Shown: positions 36,105-55,535 of the stretch, piece by piece
Layout: each line of letters begins with the position of its first letter
How positions within the stretch are numbered: position 1 is the stretch's first letter
Assembly (NCBI RefSeq): GCF_020567425.1
Contig: NZ_JAJCVJ010000003.1
Coordinates: forward strand, 496,001 to 560,000
Source: Salinirubrum litoreum
GTDB lineage: Archaea; Halobacteriota; Halobacteria; Halobacteriales; Haloferacaceae
Length of the DNA: 64,000 nucleotides
Reading direction: 5' to 3'
Made by a program: the position numbers and the translations under genes
The notes under the pieces: generated by a model
The model's input: the letters and a program-made list of their open reading frames with translations, nothing else
What the model was told of the DNA's origin: nothing
Databases searched by the model: none

Positions 36105-36307
36105 CTGGTGCGGCGTGACCAGTGCGAACTCACCGGCGGACTGTTCCGGCGGTCGCGTGCGACTCGTTAGCACTCGATAGCGGTCCCGATCCCTGCCGAG
36201 TGGCACGTACCGAAATTACCGAAGAACTAAGCGAGCGAGCGTCTACCCGCCGGATAGACGCGGTTCCGACGTGGGTCAGCCGACTCCGGTGGACCGCCCC
36301 AGACGCC

Positions 36308-36757
36308 ATGTCACGAGCAGACTCTCACCCCCCGGACAGCACCGCAGAGTCGATCCACCGCGAGTACCCACTCGACGTGCGGATCGTCGAAGTAGACGAA
36401 AGCGAGCAGCACGGGGACGACGTCGGACCGCGCTACCGGTTCGAGGCCCCCCAGCACGTCGAGATAGAGTTCGAAGCGGCGGAGACGGCGGAGTTGTACG
36501 CCGACGTCTACTTCGACACGAACGGGTTTCAGGAGGCCGGCACCGGCGACCGGGGTATCCCGCCGGAGGTCGTACAGGCTGGCCGGGACACCTTGGCGGC
36601 GTATATGTTGACTCAGCCGATGGCCGACGAGTACTTCGTCGCGTCCTTCTTCGGCAAGAAGCCGAGTCGGATTCAGCGGTACGTCTCGTGGGTGCAGGAT
36701 CGCGCCGAGGAAATCCGCGCCGGTGTCGAAGCGGAGGGAATCGAGTCGGCCGACTGA
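36308..36757 (+). CDS. Conserved-looking hypothetical protein
   Basis: A 149-residue acidic protein I do not recognise. It contains FEAPQHVEIEFEAAETAELYADVYFDTNGF and a C-terminal half rich in helix-forming residues (VSWVQDRAEEIRAGVEAEG). No signal peptide or membrane segment. The ATG at 36308 (MSRADSHPPD) is chosen because the in-frame extension back to 36122 overlaps what appears to be promoter sequence (ATTACCGAAGAACTAAG, ~36214-36230). Neighbours give no clue to its job. Confidence 0.5.
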   Translation: MSRADSHPPDSTAESIHREYPLDVRIVEVDESEQHGDDVGPRYRFEAPQHVEIEFEAAETAELYADVYFDTNGFQEAGTGDRGIPPEVVQAGRDTLAAYMLTQPMADEYFVASFFGKKPSRIQRYVSWVQDRAEEIRAGVEAEGIESAD

Positions 36758-37353: not shown

Positions 37354-39996
37354 ATGGTCGAATTCACTCGACGTACCCTGATGGCCACCTCGGTCGCCGC
37401 TTCGCTCGGAGCCAGCGTTGGCGGCGCCGGCGTGGTGACTGCCGACGACACCGACACCCCCGGCGCACCGAGCGTCAACGGGTCGCTCACGCGCCTCTCC
37501 TCGACCGCCTTCGGTGCCGAGGTCACCGGCCCGTTCGTCTTCCAGGACGGCTCGCTCCTCTACAGCGTCCAGCACCCGAGTCGTGACAACCCCGCGCCCT
37601 TCGACAAAGCCGGCGTCGGCTACTTCGAGGGGTTCCAGTTCACGATGAACGGCCGCAACGACGAGTTCGAGGAACTCTCGACCCCGCAGACCAACGAGGA
37701 ACAGGGCGTGGTCAGAGGTGCCGGCGAGTTCGTCTACCTCGCACAGGAGGGCGAGGAGATCAACGGCGGCACCGAACGACTCGGCGTCTGCCAGACACCC
37801 GATGGGACCGACCTCACGCTCGACAACTTCGCCGGCCCGCTCTACTCCGGCAACGCCGCGTACAACCCCGACTGCAACCAGTTCGTCCCGACGAACGACG
37901 ACGGCACCGAGGGCTACCTGTTCACCAACTGGGAGAACAGCCCCGGCAACGTCTCGCGCATCCCGCTCTCGCAGGCCGAAGACGGCTCGTGGGAGGCAGA
38001 CCTCGAGAACGCGATCAACCTCGCCAACACCGACGCGCTCCGCGAACTGGGCGGGACACGCATCAACTGCTACGGCAACCGGTCGCCGTGGAACACGATG
38101 CTCTCGGCCGAGGAGAACTACGCTCACCCGCGCGTCGCCCTCTCAGCGACGGTCAGCGACATCGTGGAAGCCGGCTCCGGCGTCGGCCTGCGCGGCGGCC
38201 ACGAGTTCTGGAACCGACCGAACCCGACCGAGATCCAGTCCGCAGTGGACGAGTACTACGGCGACGACTCGTGGTACGTGCAGGCGACGTGGGCACTCGG
38301 CGGGACCGAGATGCTCGCCTACTACCTCGGCGCGACTCCGGTAGACGAGGCCGAGGGCGGCGAGACGAACACCCGGAACCCCATCGGCGACACGTACCCG
38401 AATCCATACGACTACGGCTACATCGTGGACTTCCGCGACCCGGGCGCCGAGGAACCGTCGCCCGTCAAGTACTACGTCATGGGCCGCGCCGCGTGGGAGG
38501 CTCCGGACGTGCAGACCGACGAGCAGACCGTCTACCTCTGTTCCGACGGCGACAGCAAGGGTATCTACAAGTTCGTCGCCGACGGACCGATCCCGAGCTA
38601 CGACGACCCGATGGACGTGGCCGGGACGCTCTACGCGCCGAAGGTCACCAACGCCGCGGCCGCACAGGGTGGCTCACCCGCCGAGGTCCCCCTCGAACTC
38701 GACTGGCTCGAACTCGGCCACGCGACGAACGCCGAGGTCGCCGAGTGGATCGCGGCGTACGACGACGTGACACAGGAAGACTACCTCGACGCCCACGCCG
38801 AGACCGACTGGACCGACGACCTCGCGACTGCGCTCGAAGAAGCCGACCGGGAAGTCGTCGAGAACGGGAGTCAGAACTACATCACGGATCAGGAGATCGT
38901 CGCGTGGGCCGCACAGTACGACCAGCACGGCCCCGACGGCGTCGACGACGACCTGCGCAAGATTCCGTTCCTCGAGACGCGCGCCGCCGCGAAGGAGATC
39001 GGTGCGAGCATCGAGTTCAACAAAGCCGAAGGTGTCGACAGCGTCGAGGGCGCGGGTCCCGGTGACTTCGTCTACTTCGGCATCTCGGAGTTCAACGACG
39101 ACCTGAGCGACGAGTCCGGCTACGAGGGTGTCGGCGACGTCGAACTCGACCGCGTGGACGGCGGCGTCGTCTACCGAGCCGAACTCGACGCGAACTACAA
39201 CGTCTCGACGCTGGAACCGGTCATCACCGGCCCGGACGCGACCGACCCGGCGGACGTGGCTGACGACGCGCTGATCAACGTCGATAACGTCTACGCCTTA
39301 GACGACGGCCGTCTCCTCTGCTGTGAGGACGCCGACCAACTCGGGCGCTCGTACCCGAACGACTGCCTCTACGTCTACCAGCCGAACGTGATGCTCGACG
39401 TCGCCTCGGTCGCCATCGCCAACGGCCAGACGGCGCGCACGCCGCTCGTCATGTCCTCGGCTCCCGAGGGACTGGCCGGTGGAAAGGTCACGGTCACTAT
39501 CGAGGAGCAGAACGTCGCGGCGTTCACCGACGTCGAGTTCGCGGACGCGGTCGGCCTCACGGAGTCGTCGGTCAGCAACGACGGTTCGACGGCGACGCTC
39601 CGGTTCACGGACACCGAGAAGGCGATCCAGCAGGGCGCACTCGACGTCACCCTCGCGACGCTCGGTCTCCGGGCGCGCGGGACTGGCACGACAGACGTGA
39701 CCATCGAGGTCGAACGCGTGGACGACGAGGGTGGCGATCCCATCGCGGTCGAGATCCGAACCGGGATGGTCGTCACCGGCCCGCCCTCGGTCGGCGGCGG
39801 CACCCCGACCGATCCGGACGGCGACGGGAAGTTCGAGGACCTGAACGGCAACGGTCGGATCGACTACGACGACATCGTCCTGCTGTTCGAGCAGTTCGAG
39901 TCCGATGCGGTCCGACTGAACCCGGCGGCGTTCGACTTCAACGAGAACGGCGAACTCGACTACGACGACATCGTGACGCTGTACGAAGAGGCCTGA
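37354..39996 (+). CDS. Tat-exported PhoX-like (DUF839) phosphatase with cohesin-like and dockerin-like modules
   Basis: An 880-residue secreted protein. Twin-arginine signal FTRRTLMATSVAAS at residues ~4-17. Residues ~40-680 resemble the PhoX/DUF839 beta-propeller of calcium/iron alkaline phosphatases (SPWNTMLSAEENYAHPRV, YGYIVDF, VYLCSDGDSKGIYKFVADG, DNVYALDDGRLLCCED). Residues ~685-800 (VMSSAPEGLAGGKVTVTI onwards) look like a cohesin-type beta-sandwich. The last ~55 residues hold two EF-hand-like loops, DLNGNGRIDYDDIVLLF and DFNENGELDYDDIVTLY, the dockerin type I pattern. It is followed 71 bases later by a membrane-anchored protein with the same cohesin-like opening. Phosphatase activity is inferred from the family. 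Confidence 0.78.
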   Translation: MVEFTRRTLMATSVAASLGASVGGAGVVTADDTDTPGAPSVNGSLTRLSSTAFGAEVTGPFVFQDGSLLYSVQHPSRDNPAPFDKAGVGYFEGFQFTMNGRNDEFEELSTPQTNEEQGVVRGAGEFVYLAQEGEEINGGTERLGVCQTPDGTDLTLDNFAGPLYSGNAAYNPDCNQFVPTNDDGTEGYLFTNWENSPGNVSRIPLSQAEDGSWEADLENAINLANTDALRELGGTRINCYGNRSPWNTMLSAEENYAHPRVALSATVSDIVEAGSGVGLRGGHEFWNRPNPTEIQSAVDEYYGDDSWYVQATWALGGTEMLAYYLGATPVDEAEGGETNTRNPIGDTYPNPYDYGYIVDFRDPGAEEPSPVKYYVMGRAAWEAPDVQTDEQTVYLCSDGDSKGIYKFVADGPIPSYDDPMDVAGTLYAPKVTNAAAAQGGSPAEVPLELDWLELGHATNAEVAEWIAAYDDVTQEDYLDAHAETDWTDDLATALEEADREVVENGSQNYITDQEIVAWAAQYDQHGPDGVDDDLRKIPFLETRAAAKEIGASIEFNKAEGVDSVEGAGPGDFVYFGISEFNDDLSDESGYEGVGDVELDRVDGGVVYRAELDANYNVSTLEPVITGPDATDPADVADDALINVDNVYALDDGRLLCCEDADQLGRSYPNDCLYVYQPNVMLDVASVAIANGQTARTPLVMSSAPEGLAGGKVTVTIEEQNVAAFTDVEFADAVGLTESSVSNDGSTATLRFTDTEKAIQQGALDVTLATLGLRARGTGTTDVTIEVERVDDEGGDPIAVEIRTGMVVTGPPSVGGGTPTDPDGDGKFEDLNGNGRIDYDDIVLLFEQFESDAVRLNPAAFDFNENGELDYDDIVTLYEEA

Positions 39997-40067
39997 GACC
40001 GCCACTCACGGCGACAGCGTCACACGCCACTCGCGTATCGCTCTCGACTACCCGGACCACACCTGCC

Positions 40068-40883
40068 ATGCACACCGACTCACCGCCAGATCCGCCGACC
40101 CATGTTCGCCCCGCTGTCGCCAGCCGACCCCCGGTGACCGACAGCCCCGGCGCGAGGGCGCTCCTGACAGCAGCCCTCGTCGTCTGTCTCGCACTCGCCG
40201 GCTCGGTCGGTGCCGTCACCGCCAGCGCGCCCCCGGCTTTCGACACGAACCCGCCCCTCACGAACGCCACTGCCACACAGCCGGACGCGCCGACGCCGAC
40301 GACGAGCCAGTCTGACGCGCCGACGCTGACGACGACGACTGCCTCGGTCGATCCGGGCGAGACGACGACGGTCACGGTCCTGTTGACCAGCGCGCCGGAG
40401 GGTCTCGCGGGCTACGAACTCGTCGTCTCGCTGTCGGACGACGCCGCGACGATCACCGACGCGACCTACCCCGAGGGCTTCGGGTTGACGACCGACCCAC
40501 AGATCGTCGGGGACGTATCGAGCGTCACGCTCGAAGCGGCCGACACCGCCAGCACGGTCGAACCGGGCGCGACGAACGCGACGCTGGCGACGCTCACCAT
40601 CCGGGGAGAGTCGGTCGGGACGGTCGCGGTCGAACTCGACGCTCGCCAACTGGACGCCGACGGCGGCGGCGAGTTCACGCCAGCGACCGTTCCGGGGACG
40701 GTGACAGTCGGTGATCCAACGACCGCGACACCGACTGCGGGCGACGACGCGACCGACCGGCATCCGGGGTCGGCCGACACCGGCGAGGAGACGAGCGTGA
40801 CGACCGCGCTCCCGCTCGCCGGCGTCGGCGTCAGTCTGCTCGCGGTGGTTCTGGTTGCCGGACTGCTCGGGCGGCGAGGCTGA
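40068..40883 (+). CDS. Membrane-anchored cohesin-like surface protein
   Basis: A 271-residue protein. An N-terminal hydrophobic segment (ALLTAALVVCLALAGSVGAV, residues ~31-50) is a likely signal peptide. A Thr/Pro/Asp-rich linker follows, then a cohesin-type domain (~residues 85-215) beginning ASVDPGETTTVTVLLTSAPEGLAGYEL; the phrase SAPEGLAG is shared with the upstream PhoX-like protein. A second Thr/Asp-rich linker leads to a C-terminal hydrophobic segment (ALPLAGVGVSLLAVVLVAGLLG) and a short RRG end, so the domain faces outward. It could be a receptor for dockerin-bearing proteins such as its neighbour; not proven. Confidence 0.72.
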   Translation: MHTDSPPDPPTHVRPAVASRPPVTDSPGARALLTAALVVCLALAGSVGAVTASAPPAFDTNPPLTNATATQPDAPTPTTSQSDAPTLTTTTASVDPGETTTVTVLLTSAPEGLAGYELVVSLSDDAATITDATYPEGFGLTTDPQIVGDVSSVTLEAADTASTVEPGATNATLATLTIRGESVGTVAVELDARQLDADGGGEFTPATVPGTVTVGDPTTATPTAGDDATDRHPGSADTGEETSVTTALPLAGVGVSLLAVVLVAGLLGRRG

Positions 40884-48000: not shown

Positions 48001-48024
48001 CGGAATTGGACATTTCCCGAACTA

Positions 48025-48123
48025 ATGGCAGTCAGGAGACGGGCGACGGCGGGACGACGTATCGACAGATCACGAACCTGGGAGACGGTCGAGGTGGGTG
48101 CGACTGCGGAGCACCCCGAATGA
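48025..48123 (+). CDS. Leaderless 32-residue upstream ORF coupled to the giant surface protein
   Basis: ATG at 48025 opens MAVRRRATAGRRIDRSRTWE and the frame ends at a TGA (48121-48123) that overlaps the ATG of the giant gene as ATGA. The N-terminal half is very basic (six Arg in the first 12 residues), unlike the acidic proteome. With the TATA box at 47994 this would be the first ORF on a leaderless transcript. It is probably a translational control element; a functional peptide cannot be excluded. Confidence 0.5.
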   Translation: MAVRRRATAGRRIDRSRTWETVEVGATAEHPE

Positions 48124-51100
48124 GTCTTCCGAGTGACACATCATATCGTCGACTGATCACTCGCGGCCGACTCCAGACACTGGTCGTGGTGCTCGTCACC
48201 CTGCTGGTCGTCACCGCCGGCGTCGGCCCGGCGGTCGCCGTGTCGACCGCGTCCGGCGACGCGACGCTCTCCGATTCGACCGACCCGCCCGCCGACCGAA
48301 CCGAACTCGCGGTCGTCGACACCAGCGTCGCCGGCCACGAGACGCTCGCACGAACCGCCTCGGCCGAGGGGATCGAAGTCGTCCGCGTCGACGGCGCTCG
48401 CGACCTGCGCTCGGCACTCGCCGACCGGTCGGGCCTCGACGCGATCCACCTCCTCTCACACGGGAATCGCGGCCGCCTCCACCTCGGTGACGACGACTTC
48501 TCCGCAGACGGCCCGACTGCCGCTGACGCCACCCTGCGCGCACTCGGCGACAGTCTCGCAGTCGACGGCGACCTGCTCCTCTACGGCTGTCGGATCGGCA
48601 CCGACGCGGGCGACGACTCCTTCGTGACGCGACTCGCGGCCGTCACCGGTGCGGACGTGGCCGCCTCGACCGACCTCACCGGCACCGAGCGTCTCGGCGG
48701 CGACTGGGACCTCGAACGCGAGGTCGGACGCGTCGACACCGCGAGTCTGACAGCCGACGACTACTCGGGTCTCCTCCTCGGTGGCTACACCACCATCCCG
48801 GCCGGCAGTTCGCCACTCTCCGGCTTCTCCGACTCGCGGCTCCGCATCTCGGGCGCGACCGAGATGCTCCCAATCGACTACGACGGCGACGGCGACACGG
48901 ACTTCATCGTGGCCGACTCCGGGAGCAACTTCAACCTCCTCGAGAACGACGGGAGTGGCGGCTTCACGGAGCGAACCGGCGTCACGGTCGATCTGACGCT
49001 GACGACGGTGGACAACTTCGTGGTCGTGGACTACGACGACGACGGCGACCCGGACATCGTGGACGCGAACGCCGGTGCCGAGAGCGAGGCGCGAATCCTC
49101 CGGAACGACGGCGGCGGAACCTTCACCACACTCTCGGCTGGTAGTTCACCCCTCTCGGGGTTCGGCAACTCCCGACTGGCGATCGGTGGCACGAACGAAC
49201 TGATCCCCATCGACTGGGACGGCGACGGCGACACCGACTTCGTCACGGCCGACACCGGCGCGGGCTGGAACCTCCTCGAGAACGACGGCAGTGGCGGGTT
49301 CACGGAGCGAACCGGCGTCTCCATCGACATCTCGGAGACGAACGCGATCAACATTCTGGTGGTGGACTACGACGGCGACGGCGACCCCGACATCGTCGAT
49401 CCGATGGTCGACAGCGCGAACGACGCGACCGTCCTCCGGAACGACGGCGGTGGCTCGTTCACGACGCTCGCGCCCGGGAGCGGCTCTCCGCTGGCTGGCT
49501 TCACGAACTCACAGTTCAACGTCTCCGGCAACCGGGAGCTACTCCCCATCGACTACGACGTGGACGGCGACACCGACTTCCTCGTCGCGGACTCCGGCAG
49601 TGGCTGGAACCTCCTCGAAAACGACGGCACCGGTGGGTTCACCGAGCAGACCGGGGTCGCGGGCGACCTCTCGCTCGACACGGCAAACGAGTTCCCGGTC
49701 GTGGACTACGACGACGACGGCGACCCGGACATCGTCGACGCCACGGCGGGGACCGATCAGAACGCGGCGATTCTGGAAAACGGTGCGTCTCCCCCCGCGC
49801 TGATCGCCAATACACCGGCAGACGGCACGACGGATTTCCCGGCGAACGCCGACATCGTGCTGGAGTTCGACGAGACCGTCTCGCTCGGCACCGGCGACGT
49901 GGTGATCCGGCGCGTCTCGGACGACTCGCCGGTGGCGACCGCAGACGTGACGACCAGCGCAGTCACGCTCGGTAGCGGGACGCAGGTGACGGTCGATCCG
50001 TCCAGCGACCTGCCGACCGGCGTCGATCTGTACGTCCACGTCGAACCCGGCGCGATCACCGACGGAGACGGGGAGATTCCGACCTCGCTGACGGACGACC
50101 CCTCGACGCTGAACTTCGTCGCAATCGTGCCGAACGACCCGCCGACCTTCGTCGACGCCAGTCCCTCGGTCTCGGTGCCGGAAGACGGCGGGCCGGTCTC
50201 GGTCGACGCGGGCCTGACAGCCAGCGATCCCGACGGTGACGCCCTGACGTGGGAGGTCGCCAGCGCACCCGACCACGGTACACTCGCCGGCTTCCCGACG
50301 ACGGTCTCCTCGGGGACCACCACCGACACCGATCCCTCGGGACTGAGCTACGAACCCGACGCCGACTTCGCCGGCTCGGACAGCTTCGAGGTACGCGTCG
50401 TGGACGCAGTCGGCGACAGCGACACGATCACCGTCTCGGCGACGGTCGCCGACGCGCCCGAAGTCGCGTCGATCACCCGCGCCGGCGCGGGCGACGAGAC
50501 GAACGCCGACAGCCTCGACTTCGACGTGGCGTTCTCGACAGCAGTCCAGAACGTCGACACCGGCGACTTCACCCTCACGACGACCGGCGACGCGACCGGC
50601 ACCGTCTCGGCGGTCGACGCCTCGGCCGGCAGTTCGATCACCGTCACTGTCGGTTCGCTCGCCGGCGACGGCACGGTCCGACTCGACCTCGCGGACGACG
50701 ACTCGATCACGGGCGACGACGTGGGCGCGGTCCCTCTCGGCGGCGTCGGGACGACCGGCGCGGGCGACGGGAGCGCGACCGGCGACGAGACGTACACGCT
50801 CGACAACACCGGGCCGACCTTCGACTCGGCTCCCAGCGCGTCGATTCTCGAAGGTCGGACCGGCACCCTGCTCGACGTACAGGCCGACGACGACGCCGGC
50901 ACCGCGTACGACACCGATGTCTCCTACGCGCTCTCGGGGACCGACGCCGGACCCTTCTCGCTCGACTCGGGCACTGGGTCGCTGTCGATCGGGACGCCAC
51001 TGGACTACAGTTCCCCGACCGACGCGAACGCGGACAACGACTACGAACTGACCGTGACCGCGACCGACGACGCCGGCAACACGGCGACCCAGTCGGTCGT

Positions 51101-54100
51101 CGTCTCGGTCACCGAGGACACCAGCATCCCGACCGTCCTGCCGGCCGACTCCGACCCGGCAAACGGCGACTACTACGTCTCGGGCGATCCGATCACGGTT
51201 CGGTTCTCCGAGCCGATTCTCCTCGGCTCGGCGGGCACCGTGACGATCACCGACGAGACGAGCGGGACCGTCGCCGAGACGTTCGACGTGCAGGCCGACG
51301 CCGGGAGCGGTCCCGGCACCGTCTCGGTCTCGGACGCGAACCTGACGATCAGGCCGTCGTCCGCGCTCGCCGACCGGACCGACTACGCGGTCGATCTGTC
51401 GGCCGGTGCGGTCGTGGATCGCGGCCAGAACCCGATTCCTGCGTTCGACGGCACCGACACGCTCCAGTTCACCGCACTCGCGGGCGACTCGGCACTGATC
51501 ACGACCGCACCCGACTTCGACACGACGACCGGCGCGGGCATCCGCGACGGGGTCACGGCGAGTGCGAGCGACCAACTCCTGATCGTCTCCGACCCTGCCC
51601 ACCTCACGTCGGGGTCGGTTCTCGACGGGGCTGGGGGCGACGACACCGTCTCGCTCTCGCAGGCGGGCACCTACGACCTCACCGCCACCTCGCAGGTGAC
51701 CGGCTTCGAGGACGTACAGAGCCGCGCGGACGGCGACACGACACTCGTCGTCGGGAGCGGGAGCGACGACTTCGACGGCTACACCGGCACCACGGCCCAC
51801 ACCGAGACGCTGACGACGACCGCGAGTAGCACCTCGCTGACCTTCGTCCCCTTCACCGACTGGGAGCGCGTCAGCGTGACAGGCACCGACGCGACGCTCA
51901 CCGTCACGACCGGCGTCCTCACCGACCTCGACAGCCTCGACGCGCCGGGCGCGGCCAGCGGGGACACCCTGCGGTTCGCCACCGGATCGGCGGACGCCAC
52001 CGGTGCCGACCTGACCGGCTTCGAGACGGTCGCGGTCGGCACCGGCGGCGACACGCGCCTCGTGATCGACCGCGACGCGACGCGCGACGTGACCGCGTTC
52101 GACACCGGCGACACGGCCGGAAACGACTCACTGGTGACGACCGACGCCGAACTGAACGTCTCCGGGCGCTCGCTCGGCGGCTTCGACACGCTCCAGACGA
52201 CGAATGCCAGCGGGACGACCTTCGTCGTGGACGACGCCGGCACGAGGACGCTGACTGAGATCACCGGCGAGTTCGCCGCGAGCGACACGCTCTCGCTGAC
52301 CGGCACTGCGCCGAACCTGACCGGCACCGATCTCACGTCTCTCGACACGATCCGACTCTCTCGGGACGCGACGCTGACGACCGACCAGCAGACGGTCGAC
52401 TCGGTGACGACCCTCGCGGGCAGTGACGGGACCGAGGGACTCACGACCGCAGACGAGACCCTCGACCTCTCGGGGACGCAGGTCACGAGCGTCGAGTCGC
52501 TGGCGAGTACCTCGGTGAACGCCTCCTCGTTCACCGTGACCGACGCGCAACTCGGCTCGCTCACGACAGTCACCGCGACCGAGAGCGGGAGCGAACTGGT
52601 CACGACCGGCCCGACGCTCGACGCCTCGACGCTGACCGTGACGAGAGTGGACACCTTCCGGACCACGGACGCGTCCGGCACGGTGATCATCGGGACCGCG
52701 ACGCCGGACACCCTCGTCGGCTTCGACGGCGACGACAGCCTCGTCGGCGGCACGGGTGCGGACACGCTCACCGGGAACGCGGGCGTCGACGAGTTCGGCG
52801 GGACTCCCGCCGGTCTCGACCGCGACACGATCACCGACTTTGGCGACGCTGGCACGACCGTGGACGCCGAGTCCATCGTCGTCACCGGCGACGCGACCGC
52901 CGCGACCGAGGGCGAGTACGCTCGTGTCACACAGAGCGGTGGCGACAGCGTCGTCACCCTCGACACCGACGTCCCCTCGGCCGACACCTTCGACTCGGCG
53001 GACACTCGGCTCACGCTGACGGGGATCACTATCGACAGTCTCCGGGTGGAGACCGACGCCGGCGACGCGGTGCTGACGGTCAACAGTCCGCCGACGACCG
53101 CCGACTTCGGCGTCACGACCGACGAGGACACCCGGTACGTCTTCGCGGTCGGAGACGTCCCGTTCGACGATCCGAACCCCGGCGACACGCTCCAGCAGGT
53201 GACGTTCACCGGCGTCGCTGGCGACGGCTCCTTGTTCCTCGACGCGAACGCCGACGACCGGAACGACGGGGAGGAACTCACTACCGGCGACACCGTGCCG
53301 GTCGGCAACATCTCTGCGGGCGACCTCCAGTACGCACCGCCCGCAAACGCCTCGGGCGACGCGCTGGCGACCGCGACCTTCACGGTCGGCGACGGCGTGA
53401 CGACTGCGGCGACAGACGCGACGCTGACGGTAGACGTGACCGCCGTCAACGACGCCCCGCGCATCTCGGGGTCGCCGACCGCCTCGGTCGCACAGGACCA
53501 GCAGTATCGCTTCACGCCGACCGCGACCGACGTGGACACCGGCGACACGCTGACGTTCTCGGGCACCGGCGTCCCGGACTGGGCCAGCGTCGATCCGGCG
53601 ACCGGCGAACTCGCCGGCACGCCCGGGCCGACCGACGTGGCGACCTACGACGGGATCGAACTCGTCGTCACCGACTCCGCGGGCGCGACAGACACGCTCG
53701 GGCCGTTCTCGATCACGGTGACGAACGTCAACGACGCGCCGACGATCACGAACAGTCCGGCGACCACCGCACCCGAGGATGCGGCGTACAGTTTCGTCCC
53801 GTCGGTCACGGACCCGGACGCGGGCGACACGACGACCTTCGCCGTGACCGCGCTCCCGAGCTGGGCGAGCTTCGACACGGCGACCGGCGAACTGTCGGGG
53901 ACGCCGACGAACGCGGACGTGGGTAGCTACGACGACATCGAGATCACCGTGACCGACGCGGCGGGCGCGACCGACACGGTCGGGCCGGTCTCGATCACGG
54001 TGACGAACACGAACGACGCACCGACCGCGACCGACGAGCAGTACGCCGTCGGTGCGAACTCGACGCTGTCGGTCTCCGCGCCCGGACTCCTCACGAACGC

Positions 54101-55535
54101 GACCGACCCGGACGCAGGCGACAGTCTCTCGGTCGAGCAGACGCCGGTCACCGCCCCGACGAACGGGAGTGTCACGCTCTCGGCCGGCGGGTCGTTCGAC
54201 TACGACCCCGACGGGACGACCGGACCGGACACGTTCACCTACCGCGTCCGCGACGGCAACGGCGGCACTGACACCGCGACCGTGACGATAGACGTGCGTC
54301 AGCCGACCTTCGCGGTGAACGTCACCGACACGAACGACCCGGTGACGGAGGGCGACACGCTGGTCGTCAACGCGACGGTCGCGAACACCGGTTCGCTCAC
54401 CGACACCCAGCGCGTCGACCTCCGGTCGGAGGTCGACGGTGTCGTGAACACCACGGCGGTCACACTCGCGCCGAACGCCTCGACGCGGGTGTCGCTCGTC
54501 TGGCCGACGAGTCGCGGCGACTCGGAGACGGGTAACGTGACGGTCGCCAGTCCGACCGACGCCGACAGGCGCGCCGTCGAGATTCGCGTCCGGAGTAGCG
54601 GCGGCGGTGGCGGTGGCGGCGGCGGGGGCGACCCCGGCGATGGCGAGGCGGACAACTGGCCGCGTATCATCGAAGCCGAGTCGGACATCCGCGCCGAGAT
54701 GGCGGTCCCGACCGGGGTCCGCCCGCACTTCGCGGTACAGGACAGACTCCCGGTGAACCGACTCGAACCGGCCGTCGCCGAGTTCGCCGACAACTCCTCG
54801 GTCGCCTCGGTCCGGTACGAGACCGGCACGACCGGGACGGTCACGGTCGCGGAGTTCGACCGGCCGACCAGCCTCACCGACGCGACGCCGGGACGCGTAC
54901 TGACCGCGTTCCTCGTCGGTGCGGCGGGCGACGCAGAGCGGACGACGGCGACGATGCGCCTGCGGATTCCGACCGACCGACTGACCGACGGTGGACTCAC
55001 GTCCGACGACCTGCGAGTCGCCCACTACGAGGACGACGAGTGGACGCTGCTCGACCCGACCGTGGTCCGACAGCGGAACGGTGTTCTCCTCGTCGAGATC
55101 GAGACGGACGGCTTCTCCCCGTTCGCGGTGACGGCGGTCGGCGACCCGACTGCCGACTTCGTCACGCCGTCATCGGCGACGGTCGGCGAGGAACTGACGC
55201 TCGACGCGGGCGACACGACGACCCGGTTCGGCGAGATCGTCGCCTACCAGTGGTCGGTCGACGGCCGGACGCTGACGGGCGAGACGGGTACGCTGACGTT
55301 CGACGCGCCCGGCGAGTACGGCGTCACGCTGACGGTCACCGACGACACCGGCCGGACGGCGACCGCGACTCGGACGCTGGTCGTCCGCGAGCAGGGGGAG
55401 ACCCCGACCGCGACTGCGACGCCGACGGCGACGAGTGAGCCGACCACGACGACGACGCCCGGATTCGGCGTCCTCGTCGCACTGCTGGCGCTGCTGTCGC
55501 TGGTGGCGGTCGCGCTGGTGGCTCGGCGGGACTGA
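48120..55535 (+). CDS. Giant multidomain surface adhesin (DUF4347, FG-GAP, Ig-like, RTX-like, PKD, PGF-CTERM)
   Basis: A 2,471-residue exported cell-surface protein. A signal segment (LQTLVVVLVTLLVVTAGVGPAVA, ~48171-48243) precedes DUF4347 (~48300-48770: IHLLSHGNRGRLHLG, LLLYGCRIG, GADVAASTDLTG, LGGDWDLE). Three ~117-residue FG-GAP/VCBS-like repeats with D-x-D-x-D-G loops follow (~48786-49785). Next come SbsA/SwmB-like Ig domains (~49793, ~51120), cadherin/Ig-like domains (~50134-51115), a long Thr/Asp-rich repetitive region with an RTX-like nonapeptide patch (DGDDSLVGGTGADTLTGNAG, ~52723-52790), two putative-Ig repeats (~53440-54020), a cadherin-like and a CARDB-like domain, a Gly linker (~54600), PGF-pre-PGF (~54655-55150), PKD (~55160-55400) and a PGF-CTERM tail (PGFGVLVALLALLSLVAVAL, then ARRD). 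The ATG at 48120 is in a coupling overlap; the TTG at 48006 is rejected. Confidence 0.85.
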   Translation: MSLPSDTSYRRLITRGRLQTLVVVLVTLLVVTAGVGPAVAVSTASGDATLSDSTDPPADRTELAVVDTSVAGHETLARTASAEGIEVVRVDGARDLRSALADRSGLDAIHLLSHGNRGRLHLGDDDFSADGPTAADATLRALGDSLAVDGDLLLYGCRIGTDAGDDSFVTRLAAVTGADVAASTDLTGTERLGGDWDLEREVGRVDTASLTADDYSGLLLGGYTTIPAGSSPLSGFSDSRLRISGATEMLPIDYDGDGDTDFIVADSGSNFNLLENDGSGGFTERTGVTVDLTLTTVDNFVVVDYDDDGDPDIVDANAGAESEARILRNDGGGTFTTLSAGSSPLSGFGNSRLAIGGTNELIPIDWDGDGDTDFVTADTGAGWNLLENDGSGGFTERTGVSIDISETNAINILVVDYDGDGDPDIVDPMVDSANDATVLRNDGGGSFTTLAPGSGSPLAGFTNSQFNVSGNRELLPIDYDVDGDTDFLVADSGSGWNLLENDGTGGFTEQTGVAGDLSLDTANEFPVVDYDDDGDPDIVDATAGTDQNAAILENGASPPALIANTPADGTTDFPANADIVLEFDETVSLGTGDVVIRRVSDDSPVATADVTTSAVTLGSGTQVTVDPSSDLPTGVDLYVHVEPGAITDGDGEIPTSLTDDPSTLNFVAIVPNDPPTFVDASPSVSVPEDGGPVSVDAGLTASDPDGDALTWEVASAPDHGTLAGFPTTVSSGTTTDTDPSGLSYEPDADFAGSDSFEVRVVDAVGDSDTITVSATVADAPEVASITRAGAGDETNADSLDFDVAFSTAVQNVDTGDFTLTTTGDATGTVSAVDASAGSSITVTVGSLAGDGTVRLDLADDDSITGDDVGAVPLGGVGTTGAGDGSATGDETYTLDNTGPTFDSAPSASILEGRTGTLLDVQADDDAGTAYDTDVSYALSGTDAGPFSLDSGTGSLSIGTPLDYSSPTDANADNDYELTVTATDDAGNTATQSVVVSVTEDTSIPTVLPADSDPANGDYYVSGDPITVRFSEPILLGSAGTVTITDETSGTVAETFDVQADAGSGPGTVSVSDANLTIRPSSALADRTDYAVDLSAGAVVDRGQNPIPAFDGTDTLQFTALAGDSALITTAPDFDTTTGAGIRDGVTASASDQLLIVSDPAHLTSGSVLDGAGGDDTVSLSQAGTYDLTATSQVTGFEDVQSRADGDTTLVVGSGSDDFDGYTGTTAHTETLTTTASSTSLTFVPFTDWERVSVTGTDATLTVTTGVLTDLDSLDAPGAASGDTLRFATGSADATGADLTGFETVAVGTGGDTRLVIDRDATRDVTAFDTGDTAGNDSLVTTDAELNVSGRSLGGFDTLQTTNASGTTFVVDDAGTRTLTEITGEFAASDTLSLTGTAPNLTGTDLTSLDTIRLSRDATLTTDQQTVDSVTTLAGSDGTEGLTTADETLDLSGTQVTSVESLASTSVNASSFTVTDAQLGSLTTVTATESGSELVTTGPTLDASTLTVTRVDTFRTTDASGTVIIGTATPDTLVGFDGDDSLVGGTGADTLTGNAGVDEFGGTPAGLDRDTITDFGDAGTTVDAESIVVTGDATAATEGEYARVTQSGGDSVVTLDTDVPSADTFDSADTRLTLTGITIDSLRVETDAGDAVLTVNSPPTTADFGVTTDEDTRYVFAVGDVPFDDPNPGDTLQQVTFTGVAGDGSLFLDANADDRNDGEELTTGDTVPVGNISAGDLQYAPPANASGDALATATFTVGDGVTTAATDATLTVDVTAVNDAPRISGSPTASVAQDQQYRFTPTATDVDTGDTLTFSGTGVPDWASVDPATGELAGTPGPTDVATYDGIELVVTDSAGATDTLGPFSITVTNVNDAPTITNSPATTAPEDAAYSFVPSVTDPDAGDTTTFAVTALPSWASFDTATGELSGTPTNADVGSYDDIEITVTDAAGATDTVGPVSITVTNTNDAPTATDEQYAVGANSTLSVSAPGLLTNATDPDAGDSLSVEQTPVTAPTNGSVTLSAGGSFDYDPDGTTGPDTFTYRVRDGNGGTDTATVTIDVRQPTFAVNVTDTNDPVTEGDTLVVNATVANTGSLTDTQRVDLRSEVDGVVNTTAVTLAPNASTRVSLVWPTSRGDSETGNVTVASPTDADRRAVEIRVRSSGGGGGGGGGGDPGDGEADNWPRIIEAESDIRAEMAVPTGVRPHFAVQDRLPVNRLEPAVAEFADNSSVASVRYETGTTGTVTVAEFDRPTSLTDATPGRVLTAFLVGAAGDAERTTATMRLRIPTDRLTDGGLTSDDLRVAHYEDDEWTLLDPTVVRQRNGVLLVEIETDGFSPFAVTAVGDPTADFVTPSSATVGEELTLDAGDTTTRFGEIVAYQWSVDGRTLTGETGTLTFDAPGEYGVTLTVTDDTGRTATATRTLVVREQGETPTATATPTATSEPTTTTTPGFGVLVALLALLSLVAVALVARRD

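Follow-up and report, generated by a model that had tools for sequence, protein, structure and literature searches.

A candidate cohesin–dockerin pair for surface display of a PhoX-like phosphatase in the haloarchaeon Salinirubrum litoreum

In the archaeon Archaeoglobus fulgidus, the dockerin of ORF2375 binds the cohesin of its neighbor, ORF2376, strongly and specifically (PMC9705933, accessible part). Here, we describe a gene pair of similar layout, P1 and P2, from the haloarchaeon Salinirubrum litoreum. P1 encodes a PhoX-like phosphatase that ends in a dockerin; P2, directly downstream, encodes a cohesin with a C-terminal membrane helix. The two probably constitute a two-part surface display unit, in which the dockerin of P1 sits on the cohesin of P2. 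The genes lie in a 64,000-nucleotide stretch of a 4.06 Mb genome (contig NZ_JAJCVJ010000003.1, positions 496,001 to 560,000, forward strand), termed ‘the window’ below, and its named relatives in our comparison are haloarchaea. Both this pair and that of A. fulgidus are archaeal, and both consist of a dockerin-ended gene followed by a cohesin gene (PMC9705933, accessible part); the docking principle and the gene layout are thus already known. Unlike the window, the Archaeoglobus pair has no phosphatase named for it in the accessible part of that paper. The haloarchaeal case differs, too, in that the partner possesses a C-terminal membrane helix and that the pair, with enzymes that release phosphate, recurs across dozens of haloarchaea.

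Bacterial cellulosomes with type I cohesin–dockerin pairs (e.g. structures 1ohz and 6kgc) share with the window the cohesin fold (Z 16.3–16.7) and the dockerin loop pattern, and in them, as we propose for P1 and P2, an enzyme is tethered through its dockerin to a cell-bound cohesin. Unlike a cellulosome, the window has one cohesin per anchor, no scaffoldin and no cellulase; its cargo is a phosphatase, and its dockerin carries a tyrosine–aspartate (Y-D) pair at the recognition positions. Where a cellulosome has a multi-cohesin scaffoldin and cellulose-active cargo, P2 has a single cohesin and P1 brings PhoX. Anaerobic methanotrophic (ANME) archaea, which are other lineages, possess extensive dockerin and cohesin sets, including scaffoldin-like proteins, but their cargo comprises substrate-binding and S-layer proteins, and no phosphatase pair is named in the accessible part of the source (PMC9012536). 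With PhoX itself (PF05787; structure 3zwu) P1 has in common the catalytic family and a signal of the twin-arginine translocation (Tat) type, to which it adds a cohesin–dockerin (Coh–Doc) unit and a dedicated neighboring gene. A preliminary description of the locus, made from the letters of the DNA, had remarked that cohesins and dockerins are known outside cellulosomes, also in archaea.

Dockerins of haloarchaea have been treated as substrate binders, with cohesin unmentioned in the accessible parts of the papers concerned (PMC10963439, PMC13260240), and a study of haloarchaeal cellulose use presents cellulosomes, in its accessible part, only as one model suggested in bacteria (PMC10267330). 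Our literature search, in which subscription literature was poorly covered and absence is accordingly weak evidence, returned no paper on a PhoX pair or on dockerin together with alkaline phosphatase and PhoX, and none joining cohesin, dockerin and haloarchaea. Two things were not found in the literature searched and appear to be novel: the use for phosphate, and a cohesin that partners the dockerins of haloarchaea. The preliminary description had supposed that a paired phosphatase display unit would be new. This holds insofar as no PhoX pair was found in that literature; the unit is less isolated than was supposed, given its spread across haloarchaea and the gene order of Archaeoglobus. If our reading is correct, docking-based enzyme display extends from polysaccharides to phosphate, and a single-membrane archaeon has a way to stop its phosphatases from diffusing off. 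Haloarchaeal dockerins would acquire a specific candidate partner, with Haloarcula species—for which there are genetic tools—among the carriers, and a natural high-salt cohesin–dockerin pair would become available for engineering.

The two genes and their modules

P1 and P2 are separated by 71 bases and lie on the same strand. Their features, in window coordinates, are as follows.

37354..39996, + strand: P1, PhoX-like phosphatase with Tat signal and C-terminal cohesin and dockerin, 880 amino acids (sequence, Pfam)
37354..37443, + strand: Tat-type signal of P1, RRTLM (sequence; arginines R6 and R7 kept in at least 99% of 109 PhoX domains)
37471..39387, + strand: PhoX catalytic region of P1 (PF05787 match at residues 220–662, E=1.3e-16)
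39388..39789, + strand: cohesin module of P1, ‘Coh1’, residues 679–812 (fold match of the predicted model)
39796..39993, + strand: C-terminal dockerin of P1, residues 815–880 (PF00404 match, 19.3 bits; helices in the model)
39838..39873, + strand: loop of dockerin repeat 1, DLNGNGRIDYDD, residues 829–840, with Tyr838 at recognition position 10 (sequence)
39934..39969, + strand: loop of dockerin repeat 2, DFNENGELDYDD, residues 861–872, with Tyr870 at recognition position 10 (sequence)
40068..40883, + strand: P2, with signal peptide, one cohesin and membrane helix, 271 amino acids (sequence, profiles)
40320..40721, + strand: cohesin module of P2, ‘CohM’, residues 85–218 (homology to Coh1; homologous module in the model of relative L107)
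40803..40880, + strand: C-terminal membrane helix of P2, RR after the helix, the proposed anchor (sequence; hydrophobicity 2.6)

P1 scores 61.3 bits against the PhoX family (cut-off 24), and its residues N238, C239, E253 and E254 are at least 99% conserved in the 109 PhoX domains. C239 aligns with residue 179 of 3zwu, which we take to be a metal ligand. Bacterial PhoX is exported by Tat. Both dockerin loops conform to the pattern D-x-N-x-N-G-x-x-D-Y-D-D. Translation of P2 from the ATG at 40068 produces an unusually long N-terminus and from the GTG at 40134 an ordinary Sec signal; the latter may be the true start. P2 has no match to the PGF-CTERM profile (TIGR04126), and we read its anchor as a plain helix. 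The preliminary description had placed at 37354–40883 just such an arrangement, a PhoX-like protein with a cohesin-like module and two terminal dockerin-type loops followed by a cohesin-like domain with a C-terminal membrane segment, and all of these elements were recovered. It had also singled out SAPEGLAG as shared by the two proteins. The motif is indeed present in both modules, but it is the conserved core of the whole cohesin group, and it reflects homology rather than a special tag. A small gene upstream of P1 (window 36122–36757) resembles, by eye, a gene downstream of an unpaired PhoX in another genome (L067:6660-7085, genome G018); these two have no Pfam matches.

Pfam alone would miss the pair. 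Scanned whole, P1 scores 18.0 bits with Dockerin_1 (cut-off 22.9) and 13.6 bits with Cohesin (cut-off 24.1), and P2 has no Pfam match. The cohesin segment of P2 on its own aligns with positions 2–139 of the 139 in PF00963, at 14.1 bits (cut-off 24.1), and Coh1 and CohM are homologous to one another (phmmer E=1e-14). Within the Coh–Doc family the best E-value for PF00963 is 5.3e-6. Dockerin_1 (PF00404) is matched at E<=1 by 34 of 35 members, at best with 4.8e-7, and one relative (L135) exceeds the cut-off, with 23.4 bits.

Structure prediction had been put forward as a check in the preliminary description, neither fold being the outcome that would count against it; a cohesin fold and a duplicated loop–helix dockerin pattern were found. 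The predicted model of the window's Coh–Doc unit, made with 34 relatives in the alignment, has a mean predicted local distance difference test (pLDDT) score of 89.2. By this model Coh1 has the cohesin jelly-roll fold: the best solved match is a type I cohesin (6kgc_A; Z 16.7, 1.9 Å, 128 residues), and 1ohz (Z 16.3, 2.1 Å, 125 residues) and the non-cellulosomal Archaeoglobus cohesin 2xdh (Z 16.0, 3.0 Å, 129 residues) also match. Cohesin, dockerin complex or scaffoldin is named in the titles of 47 of the 50 fold matches listed; 3kcp and 2o4e presumably also contain cohesins, and 9ifr, ranked 41 of the 50, is a different adhesin domain. The L107 homolog of the P2 module has a like strand order, predicted with high confidence. 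The beta modules might otherwise be generic Ig-like spacers with a superficial likeness to cohesins, as the sub-threshold Pfam cohesin scores would allow and as weak matches of a few members to Big or fn3 families might hint, but the titles of those fold matches speak so consistently for cohesins that we consider this extremely improbable; an Ig-like identity is disfavored by the fold search of the window model.

As the listed fold matches span only Coh1, the evidence for the dockerin fold is its sequence and the predicted helices; in the model, a helix follows each loop, in two repeats. When solved structures were searched with a profile of the Coh–Doc alignment, 38 matched at E<=1. Those on the dockerin part were dockerins and EF-hand proteins, whereas the cohesin part matched nothing but DNA clamps; the cohesin assignment therefore rests on the fold and on the relatives, and no solved cohesin was matched directly by sequence.

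Co-inheritance of the two genes and of a recognition tyrosine

P1 was searched in 60 relatives and in 243 genomes of the order, and neighborhoods were scored with profiles built for the analysis. The pair counts below come from the matches listed in these searches; left out of them are PhoX-like matches at a greater distance (~35–50% identity) and the PhoX hits in G190 and G104 (a stop inside). (Handles beginning with G and L denote genomes and loci.) A cohesin gene follows, on the same strand, 55 of 62 PhoX–Coh–Doc genes, which are distributed over 59 genomes, and 55 of these genomes have the two-gene layout. Three of the seven genes lacking this neighbor are upstream copies of tandem pairs (G195, G250 and G238), and in each case the downstream copy does have a cohesin gene after it. 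Among the named genomes, a set that overlaps the 243 and is not independent of it, the pair is found at 24 of 28 PhoX–Coh–Doc loci, with carriers that include Haloarcula, Natrinema, Halorubrum, Halorientalis and Halomicrobium. Frequencies of 55/59 and 24/28 place the pairing above chance. PhoX genes without a dockerin, by comparison, have a cohesin neighbor in none of 44 cases (43 with neither module, one with a cohesin only).

These counts bear on a different interpretation of the tail, as a calcium-binding stabilizer or a binder of substrate or cell-surface sugar. EF-hand profiles match dockerin tails weakly, and a role of haloarchaeal dockerins in substrate binding is stated or suggested in the accessible parts of PMC13260240 and PMC10963439, in which, however, cohesin goes unmentioned. 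A pure calcium stabilizer does not predict a cohesin neighbor in 55 of 62 genes with a dockerin and in none of 44 without, and we regard this interpretation as very unlikely.

Phylogeny gives the same association. In a PhoX tree of 109 rows (L134 excluded), the Coh–Doc label changes nine times, eight of them forced by well-supported branches. In the eight independent contrasts the cohesin gene shifts with the label in seven to eight, and never in the opposite direction (sign test, p 0.008–0.016). The C-terminus of the partner cohesin protein is hydrophobic (above 1.5) in 52 of 55 cases, and one of ten partners scanned, L117, exceeds the PGF-CTERM cut-off, with 39.5 bits. Judged by eye, PhoX proteins without Coh–Doc end in soluble tails, except for four (L080, L288, L291 and L298) with a tail that resembles PGF-CTERM; these sequences fit the idea that Coh–Doc is one of several anchoring solutions. 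At one locus (L072:6536-7443, genome G026), the membrane-cohesin gene after PhoX–Coh–Doc is split across two reading frames, and the same locus has a second PhoX gene, with a cohesin and without a dockerin.

The dockerin itself varies in step with the partner. In clostridial dockerins, loop positions 10 and 11 of each repeat govern recognition, and are typically S-T; the titles of our fold matches include dockerin mutants at such residue pairs, and a dual binding mode. Position 10 of repeat 1 is tyrosine in all 55 paired dockerins (54 by pattern, L237 by eye) and in the three tandem-upstream dockerins. In the four genomes with PhoX–Coh–Doc and no cohesin neighbor (G018, G251, G070 and G085) it is D, D, D and R, and in the four unpaired named loci H, R, G and D; among the latter, L134 probably comes from the species of one of the unpaired genomes. 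Position 10 of repeat 2 is Tyr or Phe throughout, also in the absence of a membrane cohesin. The loss of the repeat-1 tyrosine is consistent with a repeat-1 face that is no longer constrained by binding. The interpretation of P1 and P2 as a cohesin–dockerin pair, ventured in the preliminary description, is supported by the conserved pairing, by the lack of cohesin genes beside dockerin-free PhoX, and by this linked tyrosine loss, and on the same three grounds we infer that the two proteins function together.

Proposed docking and other cargo

The proposed course of events is as follows. PhoX would be exported, folded, by Tat, as its signal implies, and P2 would be exported too, its C-terminal helix holding it in the membrane and its cohesin facing outward. 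The calcium-loaded dockerin of P1 would then dock on P2, mainly through the repeat-1 face with Tyr838; we propose this face because genomes without the membrane cohesin have lost the tyrosine. The docked enzyme would be kept at the cell, freeing phosphate from organic phosphates. Coh1 could be a buttress for the dockerin or else an acceptor for the dockerin of another enzyme, in which case one anchor might hold more than one.

Several observations weigh against this proposal. In the four unpaired genomes, the membrane-cohesin profile matches only the PhoX protein's own Coh1, and Coh–Doc can thus persist without a membrane cohesin. The unpaired state needs only one to two changes on the tree, and the link with tyrosine consequently represents one to two events; the variety of repeat-1 residues is one or two events and then drift to several residues. 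Three of the 55 partners (L072, L239 and L253) have no clear C-terminal helix. When P1 and P2 homologs of L107 are joined as one chain (the stop between the genes being read through), three domains are predicted with high confidence, with a predicted template modeling (pTM) score of 0.46, and the model does not show docking. And in a distance (‘mirror-tree’) test of 53 pairs past the length filter, 36 after removal of near-copies, dockerin and CohM show no correlation once PhoX and Coh1 are controlled for (r=0.02, p=0.40), and that of Coh1 with CohM persists when PhoX and dockerin are controlled (r=0.46).

This covariation of Coh1 and CohM is what one might expect if the dockerin closed upon a Coh1 module, in the same chain or in a second P1 molecule, to form a clamp or a PhoX oligomer, with P2 a separate surface protein that is merely co-inherited. 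Coh1 and the dockerin are adjacent, moreover, in all 62 PhoX–Coh–Doc genes, and the aromatic residue of repeat 2 is retained where the membrane cohesin is absent. Set against this, the cohesin gene comes and goes with the dockerin in independent contrasts; the repeat-1 tyrosine is lost where P2 is absent, a loss for which a self-contained clamp has no need; and Coh1 and CohM modules are set apart at consistent positions, such as that of P2 residue 116, which is aromatic in 26 of 26 CohM modules and where 32 of 35 Coh1 modules have Gly or Ala. Self-closure therefore seems to us unlikely, and docking of P1 on P2 the probable arrangement.

PhoX is not the only cargo. Y-D dockerins accompanied by a cohesin of their own occur on PhoD (L133, L300, L301, L302, L304 and L308), on 5'-nucleotidase (L135 and L303), on GDPD (L083, the same locus as L119), which has its own membrane cohesin, and on choice-of-anchor I proteins (L086 and L131). 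A second dockerin class, F-D, belongs to nuclease-like-domain proteins (L305–L307, L136 and relatives; we assume that L305 and L306 fall in the same class as L136 and L307), and a third to PKD-type proteins. Elsewhere in the genome that holds P1 and P2, the dockerins (L087, L088 and L089) lack Y-D, and cross-talk with P2 is therefore not expected. Coh–Doc on PhoD, GDPD and 5'-nucleotidase suggests a surface dock for phosphate-scavenging enzymes, and it is a reasonable guess that one anchor could be common to several of them. Most of the PhoD genes, and one gene for 5'-nucleotidase, lack an adjoining cohesin gene, but their genomes hold the PhoX pair. Six such orphan PhoD–Coh–Doc genes are among the matches listed in the 243-genome search, and five of the six genomes possess the PhoX pair (G255, G201, G108, G167 and G193). 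In the remaining genome, G202, nothing matches the membrane cohesin, but the contig with the PhoD gene extends only 388 bases beyond it. The orphan was identified as PhoD in G255, G201, G108, G193 and G202, and in G167 is assumed to be so from its size and match. Six are too few and too related to test a shared dock.

Since each enzyme also carries its own cohesin, chaining is possible. On this tentative and somewhat doubtful extension, the membrane cohesin would be the common dock for PhoX, PhoD, 5'-nucleotidase and GDPD, and the enzymes would be linked dockerin-to-cohesin into a membrane-rooted filament, repeat 1 binding the anchor and repeat 2 a neighboring enzyme. Such a filament, if real, would be a cellulosome-like phosphate assembly without a multi-cohesin scaffoldin.

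Other cohesin–dockerin sets

The window's genome holds a second cohesin–dockerin set, at the two ends of contig C3 (L088 and L089), with PKD, CARDB and malectin domains and with different recognition residues; were the contig circular, these loci could be neighbors. Larger architectures occur elsewhere. A 1032-amino acid protein of genome G260 (L309:7708-10806), with five cohesins and a dockerin, is encoded beside a GH5 cellulase with Coh–Doc, and is by its sequence a haloarchaeal scaffoldin-like protein. A 2.7 Mb genome of the order (G038; L098, L101 and L102) has 11 Coh–Doc profile matches among the matches listed, and it encodes proteins that contain two or three cohesin modules; a dockerin is present as well in two of these proteins. 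Two three-gene runs (L177:118-7365 and L096:5080-9170) comprise a dockerin protein, a two- or three-cohesin protein that also has a dockerin, and a cohesin gene, the last of which, in L177, has a C-terminal helix; the order looks like enzyme, adaptor and anchor. Gene 2719, described in the accessible part of PMC10963439 as a 258-amino acid, two-helix ‘S-layer glycoprotein’ inside a Natronoglomus cluster of dockerin-bearing cellulases, has a product whose size fits a membrane cohesin. The window contains, finally, an open reading frame of 2509 amino acids at 48006–55535.

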